DNA of 64,000 bases, taken from assembly GCA_029959285.1 (NCBI GenBank), contig JASCOE010000008.1, forward strand, positions 124,001-188,000, given 5' to 3'. Below, one piece after another: positions 35,016-44,647 of this stretch. The first letter of the stretch is position 1; every line of letters begins with the position of its first letter. The notes under the pieces were generated by a model. The model had not been told where the DNA came from, did not search any database, and saw nothing but the letters and a program-made list of their open reading frames with translations. The stretch is from Flavobacteriaceae bacterium PS02337. Its GTDB lineage: Bacteria > Bacteroidota > Bacteroidia > Flavobacteriales > Flavobacteriaceae. The translations under genes were made by a program, and so were the position numbers.

Positions 35016-36068
35016 ATGAGCGAGCCTTTAATGGTTTTAAAAAAACCTTCATATCCTTTAACACAGCCACTTTTAAGTTATTTAGAAAGATACGAACGTA
35101 TTTCTAAAGTTTCTGTGTTTTATGATGATTTGCTTCGTTTTTCGGGTTCGATAAATGTTTATGATAAAAATGATACAGATACGCTTTGGATTCGCGTTTA
35201 TTATGGAGAATTTGAACGAAGTGAAATTGATTTAAATCTAAAGAAAATATATTCGCTTTTGCATTCTGACGGAAATAGTGAAATCATTCAGTTTCTAAAT
35301 GTCGATGCAATTGACTATTGCACTTTCGGAAATTCGAAACCTTTTAGAATCAAAGTCAGAAATATTCTCAATGACAATTACGTTCATTTTTATATCAAAA
35401 AAGCCGACGCTTCTAGAATTTACGGATTGGAGTTGGAAGATATTCTTTCGCCAGATAAAATCAATTTTTTGGTTTATAAAGACACTTTGATCGAAGAACA
35501 TATTATCGGAATTCCGGGTGATGTTTTTATGGATACTTTATTAGAAAGCTGTTCTGAAACTGAAAAAGCACAAATCGCAAAAGAGTTTGTAAAGTTTAAC
35601 GAACGTTGTATGATTCGCCTTTTGGGAGATATGCGCGCGTACAATTATGTCATTGTCCCGATTCACGATTTTGATCAAGTAGTTTATAAAATTCGTCCAA
35701 TCGATTTTGATCAGCAATGTTACGAGGGGAATTTTAAAGTATATCGACCACAGTTTTTCAAGGAAAATTTTCCAATGATTCAATTGATTAAAGAAAAGTT
35801 AGAAGAACGTTCGATCATTCAATATAAAGATGAAGAAAGAGCGATTTTGGCAAAACGTATTCATTCGGCAGAAACCAGAATCCATAAATTGTTGAATATA
35901 ATGTGCCACGACACAATTTCAACACATGAACATTTATTGCAATTAAAAATGGAATTGTATCGTTATACCAACGACATGAAATTTAAAAATGCAAAATCTA
36001 TGGGACACGTCATGCACGCGGCATTCGAATTTATTACGCGTAATTTTAAAAATACACATTTAGTATAA
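35016..36068 (+). CDS. Conserved hypothetical protein, 350 residues
   Basis: I do not recognise the family. The protein is soluble, without signal or membrane segment. Residues 1-120 look like alpha/beta (RISKVSVFYDDLLRFSGSINVYD). The segment NERCMIRLLGDMRAYNYVIVPIHDF followed by YKIRPIDFDQQCY at about 195-235 has a catalytic-loop-plus-DFD appearance that could hint at a divergent kinase-like fold, but no P-loop or classical HRD is present. The last 80 residues are helical (HKLLNIMCHDTISTHEHLLQLKMELYRY). It has its own likely promoter and stands between divergent transport genes and a lipoprotein gene. Codon use looks like that of neighbours. Confidence 0.8.
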   Translation: MSEPLMVLKKPSYPLTQPLLSYLERYERISKVSVFYDDLLRFSGSINVYDKNDTDTLWIRVYYGEFERSEIDLNLKKIYSLLHSDGNSEIIQFLNVDAIDYCTFGNSKPFRIKVRNILNDNYVHFYIKKADASRIYGLELEDILSPDKINFLVYKDTLIEEHIIGIPGDVFMDTLLESCSETEKAQIAKEFVKFNERCMIRLLGDMRAYNYVIVPIHDFDQVVYKIRPIDFDQQCYEGNFKVYRPQFFKENFPMIQLIKEKLEERSIIQYKDEERAILAKRIHSAETRIHKLLNIMCHDTISTHEHLLQLKMELYRYTNDMKFKNAKSMGHVMHAAFEFITRNFKNTHLV

Positions 36069-36154: not shown

Positions 36155-37012
36155 ATGAAAAAATCTGTTTTAGTTGCCGTTTCTATAATTTTATTAGCTT
36201 GTCAGCAACAATCTAGTTCTGATTTAAAAGAACTTTATTCGCTTCCGAAAAAACTAAAAGAAGTTTCTGGAATTGCTTATTTTCCTGAAAACAATATGAC
36301 TTATACTTTGGAAGATAGCGGAAATAAAAATGCCATTTATGCGATAGATTCTAAAGGAAAACTGGCTAAAACGATAACCATTTCTAACGCAACAAATGTA
36401 GATTGGGAAGATATTACAAAAGACAAAACAGGAAATATTTACATTGGTGATTTTGGAAATAACGATAACGAACGCAGAGATTTATGCATTTATAAAGTTG
36501 CCAAAAATCAACTGAATAATGATTTGGCTAAAGCCGAATATAAAATTTCATTTTCGTATCCGGAACAAAAAGAATTTCCTCCAAAGAAAAAAGAAATGTT
36601 TTACGATGTTGAAGGTTTCTTCGAGCAAGGCGGTTATTTTTATCTTTTTACCAAAAACAGAAGCAAAGGTTTTGACGGAACAGCTTTTATATACAAAATT
36701 AAAAACGCTTCAGGAACTCAAAAAGCAGTTAAAATAGGAGAGTTTAAAACGTGTAATAATTACAATCATTGCGTGTTGACAAGCGCCACAATTAGTCCAG
36801 ACGGAAAAAAAGTAGTATTATTAAGTCACGACAAAATTGTTTTGTTTAAAGATTTTAAAGGAGATTTATTTCATAAAGGAAAACAAACTGAAATAAGTTT
36901 GAGTCATTTCTCGCAAAAAGAAGCCATCGTTTTCAAAGACAATAATACATTGCTTATCGCCGACGAAAAAACGAATAAAATAGGAGGGAAAGTTTACGAA
37001 TTTAAGCTTTAA
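36155..37012 (+). CDS. Beta-propeller-like lipoprotein, function unknown
   Basis: 285 residues with lipoprotein signal IILLACQQQ. The chain reads as repeated four-stranded blades: LKEVSGIAYFPENNMTYTLEDSG, NVDWEDITKDKTGNIYIGDFGNN, FYDVEGFFEQGGYFYLFTKN, and TSATISPDGKKVVLLSHD. This resembles SdiA-regulated/NHL-like propellers of cell-surface proteins. The acidic WEDIT..GNIYIGDFGNN motif recurs in the esterase-like family. No catalytic claim is justified. Convergent with the large phosphoesterase gene across a nested hairpin region. Confidence 0.75.
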   Translation: MKKSVLVAVSIILLACQQQSSSDLKELYSLPKKLKEVSGIAYFPENNMTYTLEDSGNKNAIYAIDSKGKLAKTITISNATNVDWEDITKDKTGNIYIGDFGNNDNERRDLCIYKVAKNQLNNDLAKAEYKISFSYPEQKEFPPKKKEMFYDVEGFFEQGGYFYLFTKNRSKGFDGTAFIYKIKNASGTQKAVKIGEFKTCNNYNHCVLTSATISPDGKKVVLLSHDKIVLFKDFKGDLFHKGKQTEISLSHFSQKEAIVFKDNNTLLIADEKTNKIGGKVYEFKL

Positions 37013-37169: not shown

Positions 37170-40100
37170 TTAAAAGCTATATGCTGCTCCAAAAATCACC
37201 CTTCCAATTTCGTCAGGAGATTTAAAGTACGAAATTCTAGCAGTCAAAATATTAATAGCGTTTAACCAAAGTCCACCGCCGTAATCGTGATGCCATTTTT
37301 TAGAATCTTCACCATCAAGCCAAACTCTTCCATAGTCAAAACCACCTAAAACTCCGTACGTAAACGGAGCAATCGTTTTACGGATTTTACCCAAACTTAA
37401 ACGCAAATCTGAGCTTTGAGAGAAATAAGAACTTCCTAAGAAACGCTCATTTCTAAAACCACGCAAATCAGTATCGCCACCAAGAGACGCACCTTGATAA
37501 AACTCGTAATTATTATTAAAAATTGCTTTTCCTTTAACGTAAGTTGCTAAAACTAGTTTTCCGTTATGATCAATTTTATGAGTAAAACCTAATACACTTT
37601 CTAGCGTTGGAAAATTCTTTTTTGTTTCATCAAGATTTGTTGTCCAAGTTCCTGCGACCATAAAATACATTCCCAAAGTTGGTTTTGCAGCAAAATCAGA
37701 ATTTTTGAAAAGATACTTAACCTTTAAACTTCCATAGTTCTGACTATTAAATACATCTGGATTTACAATTCCTGGAATATTAATATATCTATTTTCAGTT
37801 TCTTCAACAGTCATTCTTTGAAAAATAGGCTGAATGCTAAATTCACTTCCATATCTTCCTACGTGTCTAATAGCGCCCGAAGCATTAAATTTTCTAATAC
37901 GAACACGATTATAATCTAAATCATCGTCGTTGTCATATTTAGATTCGTTTCCGTATCCAAAATAATTCATTGCAAAATTCGGAGTTGTATATAAAGATTC
38001 AACATCAATAACCCATTTTCCTAATAAACCAGGGAAATGCGCAGCATAATTAAACTCCAAACCGCCCGTAGCAAAATAATAAAACGCATTTATAACATGT
38101 CTTTGCGTATACGGATTCTGCTTGAAATTGTTAACCGTATAATTTAAATTGATTCCGACTTTTACACCATCGTCAGGATTAAAACCAATATTTGGCAAAC
38201 CAGAAACAACATTGTATTTTGGTTTTTCATAATTATATAAGTTCACATCGTAATCGTCTGTTAATTGCGTTTGAGTTTTAGAATCTAGATTGTAAGTGTT
38301 TTGTTTTGATTTAAAATCATATACAATAACTTTTCTTCCGTTTTCAATATTATAAGTGTCATTGTTCTGACCGCCAATTAAACGAATTTTAATGCTTGAT
38401 TTCGAATTTCCTTTTACTTCAAAAATATCATCATCGTCTAAACCGTAAATCCATAAATTTTTGGTTTTAGCGTCGGTTACATTTTTGGTATAAACTAAAT
38501 CATCTCCTTCTTTTTTTACTCTGAAAACCTGAATTTCAAGTCCTTTTTTTGTATTATGATTAATGACAAACTTATCTTTTTTGTCTGTTCCTGCAATCAT
38601 TACGGTTTTGCTTAAAACATCAGAATATTTTATTGCATATTTTTGAAGCTCTTTTTTTCTGTTTTTCAATTTTCGAATAATTTCCTGAACTGTTGCGTCT
38701 TGAACTTCTTTTGGCATTGCTTTAAAAGCATTTTCGATATCGCTGTCAGATAAATTTTCCTGAATAAACTTAGCTTGTTCAATCCAATCTTTTTCGTTTG
38801 CAGTTCTTAAAAAAGCCAAATCCATTGGATAAGGTTCTCTACTCAGCCATTTTACATTTCCAATTTTATCTTTAAAAGTACGCATATGACGTAACGCTGG
38901 AATATTCATTAAAATAGAAAGCAAAGCACCATCATATTTTGCAAAAGCCTGATCTCTGTCGCGCGGAATTGGTCTGTAAACCACTTTTCCGTCTTTTTTA
39001 AATTCTGCCCAACGCCATTGGTCACTGTGTCTGTCCCAGTCGCCAATTAGAATGTCAAACAAACGCGCTTTTATGTATTCTTTTTCGTCAACCGAATATT
39101 TTTCATCTTTATGAAGATTCAAAAGCACATCATCTGTACCGATAATATTAGTTGGATTTCCGAAATTTTTTCCGTCTAAATGGTTGTCTGCAGGTCTTTC
39201 TTCTACCATGTATAATTGATCTCCAAAACCAGCATTAAATTCGCCTAAACCATTTTGTTTCGGAACATAATATAAAATCGGATTGGTGTGCAAAACTCCA
39301 ATTTTATCTGACATACTTCCAATTACAAACGGAGCGTATGGATGAGAAGTGGTGTAAAAATCAAATAAGAAACTTTCGGTATATGTATCTTCAAAATCAT
39401 TGACAACATATTGATCTTTAAAAGCTACAGATTGTAAAAATACAGAAGCACTTTTTTTCATGCCACGTAATACATATTCACGACCTTTTGGATCAGACAT
39501 TCTCAAAGAAACAGATTGATGTCCTCCGCCTTCGCGAATAGGTTTCAAACCGCCTTTTAGAGTGTCTATTGTGGCCACTTTTGCATCAATAGGCATGCTG
39601 TAATATTTTCTATAATGCTGTCCGAATAAAAATTTATGAAACAAACTTTTATCTGTCATTTTAGTAGAATAGATAGAAGTGGTAACTTTTTTAGGAAAAT
39701 TATCTGGAATATTGGCTGCCCAATTAATTTCTTTGGCTTTTATAATTTCTTTTTCAAAAAGCAGTTTTTCTTTATTGTTTTCATTTCCATAGAAAGAAAC
39801 TTTTGCATCACCACTTTTAAATAAAGTTAAGGTTGCATAACCATTTCCGCCATACGAAAAATCAAACGGATTTATAGCCCTTGCAGCTTCAGATTTTGAA
39901 CCCGCGCCGCTAATAATCTGTTGAATATTTTCTTTGCTAATGTATTGAAGATTATGATCGTGTCCAGAAACTACAATGACATTTTTCTGCTTTTGCAAAA
40001 GCGTTTTTATTCTTTTAGCATAAATAGTATATTGTTTATTTTGAAGGTCTTGCGGACTAACTCCAGATGTTTTTCTTAGTAAATTAATAAATGAACCAAT

Positions 40101-40901
40101 TATAGGCAACGGAATTTTTTTCTCCAATGGAAATAATTGTTTCTCTAATGAAAACTGCCCACCGTGCGTTCCGTTGCTTAAAAGCGGATGATGAATTGCT
40201 AAAACAACTGTTTTTTCTTGATTTTTGTTTAAAAGGCTTTCTAATTCTTCAAAAAAATCTTCTCTGGTTTTAATTTCGCAGTTGTCGTTTATTGTCGGAT
40301 GATTGTCCCAATCTTCTAGAAACCACTCACTATCAACAGCTATCAATGTTGCTGTGCTGTCGATTTTTACGTCTTCAATCGGACATGATTTTCTAGGTAA
40401 AAAAGCTTTTTTGTCGTTCAGGTATTTAGTCACAAAATCGGCTTGATTTTCTAAACCTTTTATGCCACTATACCAATCGTGATTGCCAGGAATTACTATT
40501 GTTTTTCCTTTAAATCCTTTCGTTAATTTTAATTGATTGGTAAGTTTTGTTTCAGCTAAAGCTTTTTCTTCTGTGTTTTTGTCACTTGGAAAACCTTTTG
40601 GGTAAATATTATCTCCTAAAAATAGCAACGTCGACTTTTTACTCGATCGTTTAAGCCTTTGTTGGAGAAGTCCTAAGGTTTGCTGTGCTTGTTCTTCATC
40701 AGCATTTCCTGCATCTCCGACTAAATAAAAAGTGTGTGCAATTTTTATAGTGTCTGTAGCGTTTTCATTTTCGTTCGCGCTTACATTTTTTCCGTATTGG
40801 GGCTTGTGGGTTGCGCAAGAATAAACAAGAAAAAGAGCAGTTAAAGCAATAGTTCTCGTTTTAATTTTTGCAATAAAATGATTATCCAAAAACAATTTCA
40901 T
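37170..40901 (-). CDS. Phosphoesterase / kinase-like / outer-membrane barrel fusion lipoprotein
   Basis: 1243 residues. The signal ends LFLVYSCATHKP, suggesting a lipoprotein. Residues 50-400 form a calcineurin-like phosphoesterase: FYLVGDAGNADEEQ, LFLGDNIYPKG, IPGNHDWYSG, VLAIHHPLLSNGTHGG and VVSGHDHNLQY give all metal ligands, and the order resembles purple acid phosphatases. Residues about 440-760 contain REYVLRGMKKS and, further on, FDILIGDWDRHSDQW and RPIPRDRDQAF, which look like the Lys, catalytic loop and metal Asp of CotH/HipA-type kinases. From about 890 the chain alternates as a beta-barrel (D15/surface-antigen-like), with ATYVKGKAIFNNNYEFYQGASLGGDTDLRG-like features and terminal IFGAAYSF. 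A secreted or surface phosphoesterase carried by its own barrel is the simplest picture. The kinase-like reading is my inference. Confidence 0.85.
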   Translation of the reverse strand: MKLFLDNHFIAKIKTRTIALTALFLVYSCATHKPQYGKNVSANENENATDTIKIAHTFYLVGDAGNADEEQAQQTLGLLQQRLKRSSKKSTLLFLGDNIYPKGFPSDKNTEEKALAETKLTNQLKLTKGFKGKTIVIPGNHDWYSGIKGLENQADFVTKYLNDKKAFLPRKSCPIEDVKIDSTATLIAVDSEWFLEDWDNHPTINDNCEIKTREDFFEELESLLNKNQEKTVVLAIHHPLLSNGTHGGQFSLEKQLFPLEKKIPLPIIGSFINLLRKTSGVSPQDLQNKQYTIYAKRIKTLLQKQKNVIVVSGHDHNLQYISKENIQQIISGAGSKSEAARAINPFDFSYGGNGYATLTLFKSGDAKVSFYGNENNKEKLLFEKEIIKAKEINWAANIPDNFPKKVTTSIYSTKMTDKSLFHKFLFGQHYRKYYSMPIDAKVATIDTLKGGLKPIREGGGHQSVSLRMSDPKGREYVLRGMKKSASVFLQSVAFKDQYVVNDFEDTYTESFLFDFYTTSHPYAPFVIGSMSDKIGVLHTNPILYYVPKQNGLGEFNAGFGDQLYMVEERPADNHLDGKNFGNPTNIIGTDDVLLNLHKDEKYSVDEKEYIKARLFDILIGDWDRHSDQWRWAEFKKDGKVVYRPIPRDRDQAFAKYDGALLSILMNIPALRHMRTFKDKIGNVKWLSREPYPMDLAFLRTANEKDWIEQAKFIQENLSDSDIENAFKAMPKEVQDATVQEIIRKLKNRKKELQKYAIKYSDVLSKTVMIAGTDKKDKFVINHNTKKGLEIQVFRVKKEGDDLVYTKNVTDAKTKNLWIYGLDDDDIFEVKGNSKSSIKIRLIGGQNNDTYNIENGRKVIVYDFKSKQNTYNLDSKTQTQLTDDYDVNLYNYEKPKYNVVSGLPNIGFNPDDGVKVGINLNYTVNNFKQNPYTQRHVINAFYYFATGGLEFNYAAHFPGLLGKWVIDVESLYTTPNFAMNYFGYGNESKYDNDDDLDYNRVRIRKFNASGAIRHVGRYGSEFSIQPIFQRMTVEETENRYINIPGIVNPDVFNSQNYGSLKVKYLFKNSDFAAKPTLGMYFMVAGTWTTNLDETKKNFPTLESVLGFTHKIDHNGKLVLATYVKGKAIFNNNYEFYQGASLGGDTDLRGFRNERFLGSSYFSQSSDLRLSLGKIRKTIAPFTYGVLGGFDYGRVWLDGEDSKKWHHDYGGGLWLNAINILTARISYFKSPDEIGRVIFGAAYSF

Positions 40902-40927
40902 AATTTAGTGGTATAAAAATATTCTTT

Positions 40928-42106
40928 ATGAATCTAATAGAACAATCCGAAGATTTCGTCAGTAATTTACTCAAAGATAAACTTTCTAATTTATATTCTT
41001 ACCATAATTTTAACCATACTTTCACAGTGGTTACGGCGGTAAAAGAACTTTGTAAAAAAGAAGACGTCGATGGCGATGATAAAGAAGCGCTTTTAGTAGC
41101 GGCTTGGTTTCATGATACTGGATATGTTCATGGATATGAAAATCACGAAAATACTAGTACAAAAATAGCTGCCGACTTTTTAAAAGAAAAAGGGAAATCA
41201 GAAGAATTTACAGCGTTGGTTTCTAGTTTGATTTTGGCTACAGCGAAAGAATATGAACCGAAAACGCATTTAGAAAAAATCATTAAAGATGCCGATTATG
41301 CGCATTTAATGGGAACTGAATATGTTACAACTTGCGAATTATTACGTTTAGAATTAAAAAATACTGGAATTGTAAGTTTTTCAAATGCTGAATGGACAAG
41401 AGAAAATTTGAATTTCTTATTGAATAAACATCGTTTTTATACCGATTATGCTTTAAGAAAATGGCAACCTTTAAAAGAAAAAAATCTATTATTAATTCAG
41501 AAGAAAATCAATAAACAAGAATTAAAAGCCGCTGCAGCCATCGAAGACGAAAACAAAAAGAAAGATAAAGCCGAAAAACCTGATCGCGGAATTGATACTT
41601 TATTTCGTGTTACACTTGGAAACCACACACGTTTAAGCGGAATTGCCGATAGTAAAGCTAATATTTTATTGTCTGTAAATGCTATTATTATTTCGATTGC
41701 ATTGTCGTCGATTATTCCAAAATTAGATAGTCCGAAAAATGCACATTTGGTTGTTCCGACTTTTATTATGCTGATGTCGAGTGTAATTACGATTATTTTT
41801 GCAATTCTTTCGACAAGACCAAAAGTGACATCGGGATTTTTTACACGCGAAGATGTCGAAGCTAAAAAAGTAAATTTGATGTTCTTCGGAAATTTCTATA
41901 AAATGCCTTTAGAAGATTACGATTGGGCTATGAATGAAATGATGAAAGACAGAGATTATCTTTATTCAACCATGATAAAAGATTTATATTATCTAGGTTT
42001 GGTTTTACAACGAAAGTATAATTTACTTCGAATTGCCTATAACTTCTTCATGTTCGGATTAATTATAACGGTTATCTCGTTTGTAATTGCTTTTAAATCG
42101 ATTTAA
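40928..42106 (+). CDS. HD-domain phosphohydrolase with C-terminal Pycsar-effector-like (DUF5706/PycTM) membrane domain
   Basis: 392 residues. The N-terminal HD domain (about 20-190) has YHNFNHTFTVV, AAWFHDTGYVHGYENHE (the HD pair at 62-63) and IIKDADYAHLMG, a complete metal-site set. A charged linker (about 200-225) leads to RGIDTLFRVTLGNHTRLSGIADSKANILLSVNAII, the hallmark start of the DUF5706/PycTM membrane domain, followed by hydrophobic segments near 252-272, 283-303 and 370-390. Stand-alone PycTM proteins are the cyclic-UMP/CMP-gated membrane effectors of Pycsar antiphage systems. No nucleotide cyclase gene is nearby in the window. The fusion suggests an HD enzyme that degrades a nucleotide signal coupled to a membrane effector. 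Starts only 26 bases from the divergent phosphoesterase gene. Confidence 0.87.
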   Translation: MNLIEQSEDFVSNLLKDKLSNLYSYHNFNHTFTVVTAVKELCKKEDVDGDDKEALLVAAWFHDTGYVHGYENHENTSTKIAADFLKEKGKSEEFTALVSSLILATAKEYEPKTHLEKIIKDADYAHLMGTEYVTTCELLRLELKNTGIVSFSNAEWTRENLNFLLNKHRFYTDYALRKWQPLKEKNLLLIQKKINKQELKAAAAIEDENKKKDKAEKPDRGIDTLFRVTLGNHTRLSGIADSKANILLSVNAIIISIALSSIIPKLDSPKNAHLVVPTFIMLMSSVITIIFAILSTRPKVTSGFFTREDVEAKKVNLMFFGNFYKMPLEDYDWAMNEMMKDRDYLYSTMIKDLYYLGLVLQRKYNLLRIAYNFFMFGLIITVISFVIAFKSI

Positions 42107-42277: not shown

Positions 42278-44647
42278 TTAGTTGAGCTCATCTAATAAAT
42301 CTTGGTAAGTTATTTTTTTAACACCCGATTTTGCATTGTTATTGATCACTTTTACGCGTATCGCTCTCAATCCAGAAACACCTTGAAGATCTTCAACTTC
42401 AAATTGCTCAATCGCAGGTTCTAAAATTTTCTTGTGTTGCAGGTATTTAATGTATTTTAAATATTCTGCTTCTTCACTATTTTGAGAATAGACAATTGTG
42501 ATTTTCTCTTTTTCAGTAATTCTTTCGTTACTTCCTTTAATGTTCGATTTATCAATTCGTTTTTTAACGACTTCATATCGTGCATTATAAGTTCCGTCAA
42601 CATCAAAACGTTTTTCATCCATTCTGAAACGAATAGAAAGCGGCGAACTGAAAACCAAAATCAACGAAGTTACATCCAATTCATACGGAAGAGATTCTTT
42701 AAGTTCGTGATGTTCCAATTCCATTTCGCATAAAGTCTGCAATTGCCACAAACGAAGATTATGCAAATACATAATGTCGAAAGGTTTAGTTGGCGAAATT
42801 GAAGCTCCGATATACAAATTATGTTCTACACCATCGGTTTTAAAACGCTCATAATAATGCGGATAAATTTGTTGCGCTTCAACCTGTTTTCTATCTAAAA
42901 CAGTTGCCAGCCTTTTATTAATAATAGACATTGCATTGTCGAATTTCTTTCTTTCGTGATAAAACATTCCTGTTTTTTCATCTAGTTTTTCAAAATACAG
43001 TTCTGCTAATTTTTCGTCTTTAGCACTGCCTTTTGTATTCTTTAATATCGGATGAATTTCTTCTTCAATATAACGCTGAATATGTTGTTCTGTATCGGCT
43101 TTTAGAGGAAAGTCCAGTTCAGTTCGAAGCGATTCCAACTCAAACTTTCTTTGTTCTAAAAGAACAAGGTTTGAATTTGGTTTCTGATTATCAAAGATTT
43201 CCAAAAGAGCGGTTAGCTGACTTTTTAAATCTGTTTTTACAGTTTCATTTCGATGTTCAGACGAACCTTTAATATCAATTTGTCCATAAAGCGGAAATAC
43301 ATTTTTAAAGACAATTTCTTTAAAAATATAATCTTTAGTATGATTTAGATTTTGAAAGTAATTCTGAGATTCTTTTTTGAATTTCCAATACACACTTGGG
43401 TGAATTGTAGTGTACTCACGTTGAATAATAGCTTCAACTTGGTGCTGCATATCGGTGTTATAACGATCTATCGTATCAGTTAAATACGGCAGAACCAAAT
43501 CCAGTTTTGTAGCATTGACACTATTTAAATCTCTAGGATTTTCAGAAACTAATTCTACAACGCCCAATAAATGACCATCTTTAATGACTGGAGCAAAAAT
43601 ACAACTTTGAATATTTTGCTTTAACAAATGCTCACCAAGCCTTTTATTTGTAGATTCTTCTGTAAATTTTTTGACATTAGAAATTACAAAAGGCTCATTT
43701 TTGTCTAATAAATTTTCAAATGAACAACCAAAAAAAGCATTTTTACAATCTAATTCCTGTTCGGTAGAAAGTAAAAAACTTCTAAGCTGTGTGTCATATT
43801 TTTCTGGTCTGAGAAATTTCTCTTCTTCTGGATTATAAATGATAAAACCAACTTTTAGATTCGCAAGATTAAAAATAGATTGAAATATGTTAGAAATCTC
43901 TTCACCAGAAGTAGCAGTTGTTACTCCAGGTTTTAGCAAATTACTTTTTAAGGTAGAAATAGCACTTTCTGTAGTTGCGTCAAATAAAGAAACAATTCCG
44001 AAACCTCTTAAAATCCAGCTTCCTTTTGGGAATTTAGATTTCCATAAATCGATATCACTATAATTATCAATAAGTTGATCTATATCTTCTTGAGTTAAAG
44101 CTACAGCATTTTCTGTTGGGATAATTTCCATGAAATCAGCATTATACAAAATTCTGTAATGTCTTTCTACACCATTTTCATCTGGAATATCATAGAAAAA
44201 CGGCTGATTAAAATCGATATGCTGGTTGTAATAATAGCTTAGAATCAAACAGCAGTTATTGATGTAGAATTGATGTTCGCTAAAATCACGAATTTCCATG
44301 TAAAATTCATCTCCAGCATTTTTCAGAATTTTTTTAAAACGTTCTGTATAATTAAAGGAAATATTTTGAAATGGAATGGTAACCGCTTTTATTTCATTGT
44401 TCGTTAGAGCAGTAGGAAATAAATCGGCTAATATATTTTTGATTAAAGGTTCATTGTCTTTAATAACAGAATAATCAGTAATTCCAGTGCGTAATTCTGG
44501 AATCAAATCGATCTGTTCTAAAATAGCTTTGGCATAATTTGATCTGTAATCAATGTCAGACAAAGCAATTTCTTCAAAAGATTCGATTAGCTTGTGAAAA
44601 GAGATTATGGTGGCAAAAGGACTTTCTTTGAAAAATTGAATATCCAT
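42278..44647 (-). CDS. Large GAF-domain protein, function unknown
   Basis: 789 residues, soluble. A GAF-like segment is seen at about 240-400 (ILSNIFQSIFNLANLKVGFIIYNPEE then IFAPVIKDGHLLGVVELVSENPRDLN). The flanking N- and C-terminal regions match nothing I recognise; the C-terminal part contains a helical stretch (about 455-610) and ends in a beta-rich region with SGLRAIRVKVINN. There is no kinase, cyclase or HTH output motif. It is widespread in Flavobacterium as far as I recall, under the name GAF domain-containing protein. A -7 element lies 19 bases upstream. Confidence 0.8.
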   Translation of the reverse strand: MDIQFFKESPFATIISFHKLIESFEEIALSDIDYRSNYAKAILEQIDLIPELRTGITDYSVIKDNEPLIKNILADLFPTALTNNEIKAVTIPFQNISFNYTERFKKILKNAGDEFYMEIRDFSEHQFYINNCCLILSYYYNQHIDFNQPFFYDIPDENGVERHYRILYNADFMEIIPTENAVALTQEDIDQLIDNYSDIDLWKSKFPKGSWILRGFGIVSLFDATTESAISTLKSNLLKPGVTTATSGEEISNIFQSIFNLANLKVGFIIYNPEEEKFLRPEKYDTQLRSFLLSTEQELDCKNAFFGCSFENLLDKNEPFVISNVKKFTEESTNKRLGEHLLKQNIQSCIFAPVIKDGHLLGVVELVSENPRDLNSVNATKLDLVLPYLTDTIDRYNTDMQHQVEAIIQREYTTIHPSVYWKFKKESQNYFQNLNHTKDYIFKEIVFKNVFPLYGQIDIKGSSEHRNETVKTDLKSQLTALLEIFDNQKPNSNLVLLEQRKFELESLRTELDFPLKADTEQHIQRYIEEEIHPILKNTKGSAKDEKLAELYFEKLDEKTGMFYHERKKFDNAMSIINKRLATVLDRKQVEAQQIYPHYYERFKTDGVEHNLYIGASISPTKPFDIMYLHNLRLWQLQTLCEMELEHHELKESLPYELDVTSLILVFSSPLSIRFRMDEKRFDVDGTYNARYEVVKKRIDKSNIKGSNERITEKEKITIVYSQNSEEAEYLKYIKYLQHKKILEPAIEQFEVEDLQGVSGLRAIRVKVINNNAKSGVKKITYQDLLDELN

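Follow-up and report, generated by a model that had tools for sequence, protein, structure and literature searches.

What might a bacterium do with a single protein that appears to join a phosphoesterase, a kinase-like segment and an outer-membrane barrel? The question is raised by a gene in a 64,000-nucleotide stretch of the genome of Flavobacteriaceae bacterium PS02337 (contig JASCOE010000008.1, positions 124,001 to 188,000), called the window below and numbered from its first letter. At 37170-40901, the minus strand holds a single open reading frame (ORF) of 1243 amino acids with an ATG start; frame 1 of the plus strand is riddled with stops across the same interval. The reading that we favor, and consider fairly probable, is that of an outer-membrane-anchored phosphotransfer enzyme of Bacteroidota, which would hold a phosphatase and a domain of the CotH/HipA/Fam20C kind at the periplasmic face.

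Architecture of the protein

The gene (37170..40901, minus strand, like all of its parts below) encodes a lipoprotein-like signal, a purple-acid-phosphatase-type domain, a kinase-like domain, a linker and an Omp85 barrel, as predicted from the ORF. An initial annotation, which named no strand, had described the protein by a set of short motifs. All of them were found here: GDAGN (residues 62-66), GDNIYPKG (96-103), GNHDW (139-143), HH (237-238) and GHDHN (313-317) in the first third, REYVLRGMKKS (474-484), FDILIGDWDRHSDQW (615-629) and RPIPRDRDQAF (643-653) in the middle, and Phe as the C-terminal residue. Pfam returned Metallophos at residues 57-316 (E 6e-12) and two weak DUF matches, and inspection of matches to E 1 gave no credible domain for the middle region.

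The N-terminal metallophosphoesterase proposed initially (residues 57-316; 39954..40733) was supported by this Pfam match and could be placed more precisely. A profile of 32 N-terminal homologues best matched purple acid phosphatase/TRAP structures (8.5e-18), followed by Gap50 (9.8e-10). Among the same homologues, D63 and D97 were each kept in 31/32, Y100 and N140 in 30/32, and H237 in 32/32, with H314 and H316 conserved at ≥90%; we take these seven columns to be the TRAP metal ligands. By these matches, the domain is predicted to be a phosphatase, with purple acid phosphatases (TRAP/ACP5) as the closest match. It shares with them the seven metal-ligand positions, including the Tyr that follows GDN, and differs in that it is joined to a kinase-like domain and a barrel within one three-domain protein.

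The kinase-like middle domain

Residue conservation in the putative protein-kinase-like (PKL) domain (residues ~420-760; 38622..39644) was counted in 87 representatives at 70% identity. In the region of the catalytic loop FDILIGDWDRHSDQW (39015..39059), R613 was kept in 85, D616 in 87, D621 in 84, D623 in 81, R624 in 84, H625 in 79 and W629 in 84. Around the metal-Asp motif RPIPRDRDQAF (38943..38975), the counts were 84 for P646, 82 for D648, 81 for D650 and 87 for G658. The upstream half retained G459 (80), Q462 (78), R479 (81), K483 (83) and E567 (82). A Gly-rich pattern, GGGxQxSL at 458-466, was common to the representatives, and the segment from GGGHQS (458-463) to Lys483 (39453..39530) is a candidate nucleotide-binding loop. 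Because the pattern is conserved in 87 representatives, the motifs of the middle region are not a product of chance. In the conservation survey suggested by the initial annotation, D616, D623, H625, D648 and D650 were each kept in 79-87 of the 87, and K483 in 83.

All seven of K483, E567, D616, D623, H625, D648 and D650 were present in 75 of the 85 rows of a second alignment. Six of the ten incomplete members (L159, L189, L197, L198, L202 and L210) lacked three to five of these residues, and losses tended to coincide. The middles of these six are likely pseudokinases on a barrel, judging by the residues lost.

An 85-sequence profile of the middle was compared by hhalign with 24 ORF families, which had been clustered from loci without labels. 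Two CotH families ranked first and second (46.3 and 38.2; 21/21 and 6/6 members CotH), followed by a family of GAF neighbors (26.4; 32/32) and a HipA family (22.6; 22/22). With reversed profiles as controls, all 24 families scored ≤19.5. The whole CotH set reached 35.3 (reversed 16.4) and the whole HipA set 30.0 (reversed 17.4). When 785 single ORFs of ≥200 amino acids were ranked, after exclusion of family members and of loci L023-L118 and L271, CotH ORFs occupied ranks 1-11 and 24/42 of them lay within the top 27; the best HipA rank was 31. Mann-Whitney tests over these ORFs gave p values of 1.7e-12 (CotH) and 5e-4 (HipA), which overstate independence, as the ORFs are interrelated. In a reciprocal hmmsearch of 1211 ORFs, nine CotH-locus ORFs ranked directly after the family (E 0.045-0.34). 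With a profile of the CotH set, family members came after the CotH ORFs and a few others.

The stretch alignable with both CotH and HipA comprised the catalytic loop and the metal Asp, with the active-site motifs in register. After splitting by lobe, the C-lobe scored 34.4 against the CotH family (P 4.5e-4) and 26.1 against the HipA family (P 0.0035). The top N-lobe score (26.2) came from the GAF neighbor family over 21 columns only; it looks spurious and was rejected. The kinase-like segment of the initial annotation is thus retained for its C-lobe, where catalytic loop and metal Asp align with those of CotH and HipA kinases. We hold with good confidence, from these profile comparisons, that the catalytic half of the middle is homologous to CotH/HipA-type protein-kinase-like enzymes. 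A full, bilobal kinase fold is likely, with the N-lobe as its conjectural part, and the domain may have kinase activity.

CotH kinases (PF08757) gave the top profile match of the families tried. They share with the middle domain, in matching order and register, the catalytic loop and a metal motif P.D.D..F, RPIPRDRDQAF standing opposite CotH IPyDyDntF. They differ in that the family described here stays below the Pfam cut-off (no PF08757 match above it for the window protein or 85 members), has an unmatched N-lobe and is fused to a barrel. CotH is described in the available text of PMC7821199 as having an atypical kinase-like fold and as a distant Fam20C relative, with D228Q as an inactive variant.

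For HipA kinases, the catalytic loop (N.DDH.KNfsF versus GDWDRHSDQW) and the stretch preceding it align. PDC-M03A, a HipA-type model of PADLOC, matched the window protein at residues 606-750 (E 7e-4). Among the matches listed for this model in 148 genomes there were 47 places. Where a genome had been searched with HipA_C as well, 18/18 places coincided with a HipA_C place, and one of the 47 was a family member (G168, 2.5e-5). In contrast to HipA, no HipA_C (PF07804) match was found for the window protein (to E 1), nor for the 85 members in the best 25 of their 59 weakly matched Pfam families, and no toxin-antitoxin setting was seen.

The likeness to Fam20C secretory kinases (PF06702) lies in the weak match of one homologue, G168/L134. 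Pfam matched Fam20C in 1/85 members (L134, E 0.0012) and CotH in 2/85 (best 0.024), again within the best 25 families. The difference is that nothing above the cut-off was found for Fam20C in 198 genomes, the best match there (4.8e-4, below cut-off) falling inside G168.

The barrel and the side of the membrane

The C-terminal part (residues ~900-1243; 37173..38204) is, on the profile evidence, an Omp85-type barrel, in agreement with the Omp85/D15-like barrel of the initial annotation. Searched with the whole protein, NCBIfam Omp85_fam matched residues 1052-1215 (E 4e-19; 69 bits, cut-off of 200 not reached). Among 42 barrels, Omp85_fam matched all (best 2.7e-33; the window's barrel 8.6e-21, under the curated whole-protein cut-off) and Pfam Omp85 27, the window's own barrel having no Pfam match at 0.01. 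BamA structures were also matched by the barrel profile, as was a POTRA-domain protein (9.6e-15). The window protein carries the loop motif GGDTDLRGF at 1141-1149; GGxxxLRGF is conserved, its columns G258, G259, L263, R264 and G265 in alignment A4 being invariant or ≥90%, and a terminal Phe was present in 72/84. A (V/L)RGF/Y loop-6 motif is named for BamA in the available text of PMC12611786. Ahead of the barrel lies a Gly/Asp-rich linker, YGLDDDD...RLIGGQNND (residues 819-848; 38358..38447), whose consensus GDDxFxVxG...GGxGxD is kept across the family. It had no Pfam match, and by eye we take it to resemble RTX-type repeats.

The signal peptide (40815..40901) ends, by a simple rule of our own, in a lipobox-like VYSC with Cys29 (...SCATH). 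The same rule found a lipobox-like Cys in 39/53 three-domain representatives and in 3/31 middle+barrel representatives; the other 28/31 lacked one, and middle+barrel proteins mostly had a plain signal peptide. The N-terminus may be lipidated. As the lipid would lie in the periplasmic leaflet and the barrel in the same membrane, both enzyme domains would be placed at the periplasmic face. Surface lipoproteins do exist in Bacteroidota (PMC12611786, available text).

The initial annotation had proposed a new relative of the type Vd autotransporters, in which both enzymes would be delivered to the cell surface via their own barrel. As in PlpD, the patatin-Omp85 prototype of type Vd, enzyme domains precede an Omp85 barrel. 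Unlike in patatin-Omp85 proteins, neither a POTRA nor a patatin domain was found by Pfam to E 1, and the N-terminus is lipoprotein-like, with its lipobox-like Cys. In PlpD itself, the enzyme domain is reported to stay periplasmic (PMC11116518, available text). We therefore did not keep this proposal, which we rate as very improbable.

A POTRA domain is usual, not universal, in the Omp85 superfamily. POTRA-less subfamilies are on record, and the general role of Omp85 proteins is assembly or translocation (PMC4104836, available text). The protein could accordingly be an envelope-assembly factor, whose barrel would fold or export clients and whose enzyme domains would mark or check them, and the barrel is clearly Omp85. 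Against this stand the missing POTRA match and the recurrent neighbors tested below, which are phosphate- or HD-type genes. For the BAM complex purified from F. johnsoniae, the subunits described are different proteins, with locus tags not mapped, and 'phosphatase', 'phosphoesterase' and 'kinase' occur 0 times in the available text of that study (PMC12611786). We regard an assembly role as improbable.

The pairing of a phosphoesterase with Omp85 had been published before. Heinz and Lithgow (2014, PMC4104836) defined an Omp85 'Metallo' subfamily by PF00149 and listed it among the non-POTRA architectures, as far as their available text goes; the literature search yielded no other source that pairs Omp85 with PF00149. 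They called it a metalloprotease, contrary to Pfam, in which PF00149 is Metallophos (calcineurin-like phosphoesterase). In 'Metallo' proteins, as in the family described here, PF00149 lies N-terminal to an Omp85 barrel. In the available main text, no middle domain is reported for them and 'kinase' occurs 0 times (PMC4104836); here, PF00149 is of the purple-acid-phosphatase type, and a kinase-like domain lies between it and the barrel. Since none of 214 matching ORFs (see below) had a phosphoesterase and barrel without the middle, 'Metallo' proteins are probably the same proteins, a statement made without comparing the 'Metallo' sequence lists. Some Omp85 barrels with no recognized N-terminal domain resemble Metallo barrels (PMC4104836, available text). 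Middle+barrel proteins would look like such barrels, their middle region having no matching Pfam family. No report of a kinase-like domain on Omp85 was found in a literature search that covered mostly titles and abstract openings, with thin coverage of subscription journals.

Distribution and modularity of the family

The closest named relatives, among the best 80 of 148 matches, were Flavobacterium species with identities up to 91%. In near genomes, the gene was matched in 22/40 (own genome counted; one match partial), with internal stops in none. With the whole protein as query, at least part of it was matched in 124/296 Bacteroidota genomes.

The blastp search (1e-5) gave 214 matching ORFs from 210 loci; 80 of these are close Flavobacterium loci, and some of the 210 are duplicates. 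Phosphatase, middle and barrel were combined in 166 ORFs and middle and barrel in 37; the phosphatase stood alone in five, the middle in four and the barrel in two. Phosphatase+barrel without the middle occurred in 0/214, by a blastp query that can overlook remote phosphatases, as at L184 and L186. At these two loci (L184 4755-8801, L186 4947-8902), a middle gene and a barrel gene flank a separate gene of 403 amino acids, recognized as Metallophos by Pfam only, and the three parts of the family are encoded as three adjacent genes. This separate occurrence of the parts, even as three adjacent genes, is new here. A tandem pair of middle+barrel genes was seen at L176 (4968-10477) and L177 (4347-9561).

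On a tree of 86 middles, made by a quick method and with six long branches, the three-domain label required eight changes (≥6 forced by well-supported branches), compared with a mean of 26.8 after shuffling. The three-domain form was gained or lost several times and is strongly clustered on the tree. Viral contigs gave 18 pattern matches to the middle domain, with no relative among them. Five plasmid records carried the family, all presumably from Bacteroidota genera, as we place them.

Gene neighborhood

A gene for an HD domain and a PycTM membrane domain (40928..42106, plus strand; Pfam HD 5e-11, PycTM 7e-37) diverges from the gene, with 26 bases (40902-40927) between the two start codons. 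In 73/80 Flavobacterium loci, the starts of HD-PycTM and of the gene are 20-30 positions apart, using mechanical ORF starts; the other seven overlap by ORF choice. This suggests a shared promoter region. On the other side lies a predicted SdiA-regulated propeller lipoprotein (36155..37012, plus strand; Pfam SdiA-regulated 1.5e-6, above cut-off; Phytase-like 3e-4, below cut-off), which in other genomes is often immediately upstream in the same direction. As to a role in phage defense, PADLOC gave at the locus, besides PDC-M03A for the window protein, only PycTM/2TM effector models for the HD neighbor. Farther out, 42278-44647 encodes a protein of 789 amino acids with weak GAF matches. A protein of 350 amino acids at 35016-36068, present in 77/80 Flavobacterium loci, has no Pfam match; by eye, its LGDMRAYN...RPIDFDQ resembles a kinase catalytic loop. 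It was dropped as a second kinase, its hhalign scores against CotH, HipA and the middle domain being at chance.

Neighbors were surveyed, with flanks of up to 5 kb, in 80 divergent loci (L131-L210), among them truncated loci and loci with the phosphatase alone. HD-PycTM was found in 36, SdiA-regulated in 26, PPK1 in 17, SixA in 14, GAF in nine, PAP2 in four and CotH in three. The SdiA-regulated count depends on the query (26/80 with that of L170, 3/80 with that of the window), and the SixA label is our assumption from a remembered motif, together with Pfam His_Phos_1. In the 80 Flavobacterium loci, HD-PycTM and GAF occurred in 80 and SdiA-regulated in 78 (window query).

As a matched control, 40 of the divergent loci, chosen for long contigs, were compared with 40 stretches taken from other parts of those contigs. 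HD-PycTM was found in 22 versus 0, SdiA-regulated in 12 versus 0, PPK1 in 10 versus 0 and SixA in nine versus 0; PPK1 or SixA combined occurred at 15/40 family loci versus 0/40 controls. Differences were non-significant for GAF (4 versus 0) and CotH (2 versus 0), and generic genes gave 2 versus 4 (ABC) and 0 versus 6 (SDR). The order HD> PPK1> SdiA> [three-domain]> was seen in four loci with gaps of -22 to 76 bases, with GAF> next in three. In L170 and L173, the order was PAP2< CotH< porin< SdiA> [middle+barrel]> PPK1< SixA< HD<. That some members of the family are linked to ppk1/sixA is new here. L170 (8419-11382), L173 and L180 each have, next to the middle+barrel gene, a single run that encodes a phosphate-porin-like protein, a PAP2 phosphatase and a CotH kinase, which brings two kinase-type genes close together.

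These neighbors also fit phosphate scavenging, in which the phosphatase and the SdiA-regulated/phytase-like propeller would free phosphate to be stored as polyphosphate, and the kinase-like domain would bind phosphorylated ligands or be idle. The purple-acid-phosphatase-type domain, the weak phytase-like match of the neighbor, the ppk1, PAP2 and phosphate-porin-like genes in some clusters and the loss of kinase residues in some lineages agree with it. However, the full kinase-type residue set is retained in 75/85, and 37/214 ORFs consist of the kinase-like part and barrel, with no phosphatase recognized. We consider scavenging rather unlikely.

Proposed function and significance

In the phosphotransfer reading that we favor, a lipidated N-terminus and the Omp85 barrel would anchor two enzyme domains to the outer membrane on its periplasmic side. 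One would be a phosphatase of the purple-acid-phosphatase type, the other a protein-kinase-like domain of CotH/HipA/Fam20C type. Their work would likely be to phosphorylate, reversibly, a substrate in the periplasm or the outer membrane, or to handle phosphate esters there, with an activity tied to the phosphate and polyphosphate economy of the cell. The domains, the conserved active-site residues, the modularity of the family and its partial ppk1/sixA linkage are read from the sequences themselves; from there, we infer lipidation, a complete kinase fold with catalytic activity, the periplasmic location, the substrate and the phosphate donor.

Several results weigh against this reading. The CotH and HipA ORFs were present in the comparison set because their loci had been added deliberately. 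The remaining 18/42 CotH ORFs fell below the top 27, spread to rank 731, and the window's own middle reached E 47 with the CotH profile. The HipA profile did not set the family apart from the rest of the 1211 ORFs by hmmsearch, and the N-lobe scored at chance level against CotH and HipA, not above control. The middle profile had 0 matches among PDB sequences (E up to 10), which include structures of CotH, HipA and Fam20C. The window gene was absent among the matches listed for PDC-M03A in the 148 genomes, and the G168/L134 gene was the sole source of Fam20C matches within the family. Three or more key residues are missing in 6/85 relatives. PPK1 or SixA was found near 0/80 Flavobacterium loci, and the two ppk1 genes of the own genome are both on other contigs. 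The periplasmic phosphate donor is, to our knowledge, an unsolved problem.

A bolder version, which we think unlikely, addresses the donor. The family would be a widespread, unnamed outer-membrane kinase family with a CotH/Fam20C/HipA-like domain on an Omp85 barrel, in many species together with a purple acid phosphatase, acting as a reversible envelope phosphorylation switch that uses polyphosphate, or another exported donor, instead of periplasmic ATP. Polyphosphate as donor would account for the ppk1/sixA linkage.

We know of few enzymes for phosphorylation outside the cytoplasm in Gram-negative bacteria, and of no clear phosphate donor. Found in part or whole in 124/296 sampled Bacteroidota genomes, and with a single outer-membrane anchor often bearing both a kinase-like and a phosphatase domain, the family makes the question of extracytoplasmic phosphorylation directly testable. 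The analysis suggests an identity for the middle region of the Omp85 proteins named 'Metallo' in 2014, and some 'noNterm' Omp85 proteins perhaps carry a kinase-like middle too. The interest lies in a previously unrecognized, putative kinase-like domain carried by an outer-membrane family that spans the phylum, with polyphosphate genes alongside part of the family, a linkage which suggests that the bacterial envelope may be a place where phosphate groups are both attached and taken off.

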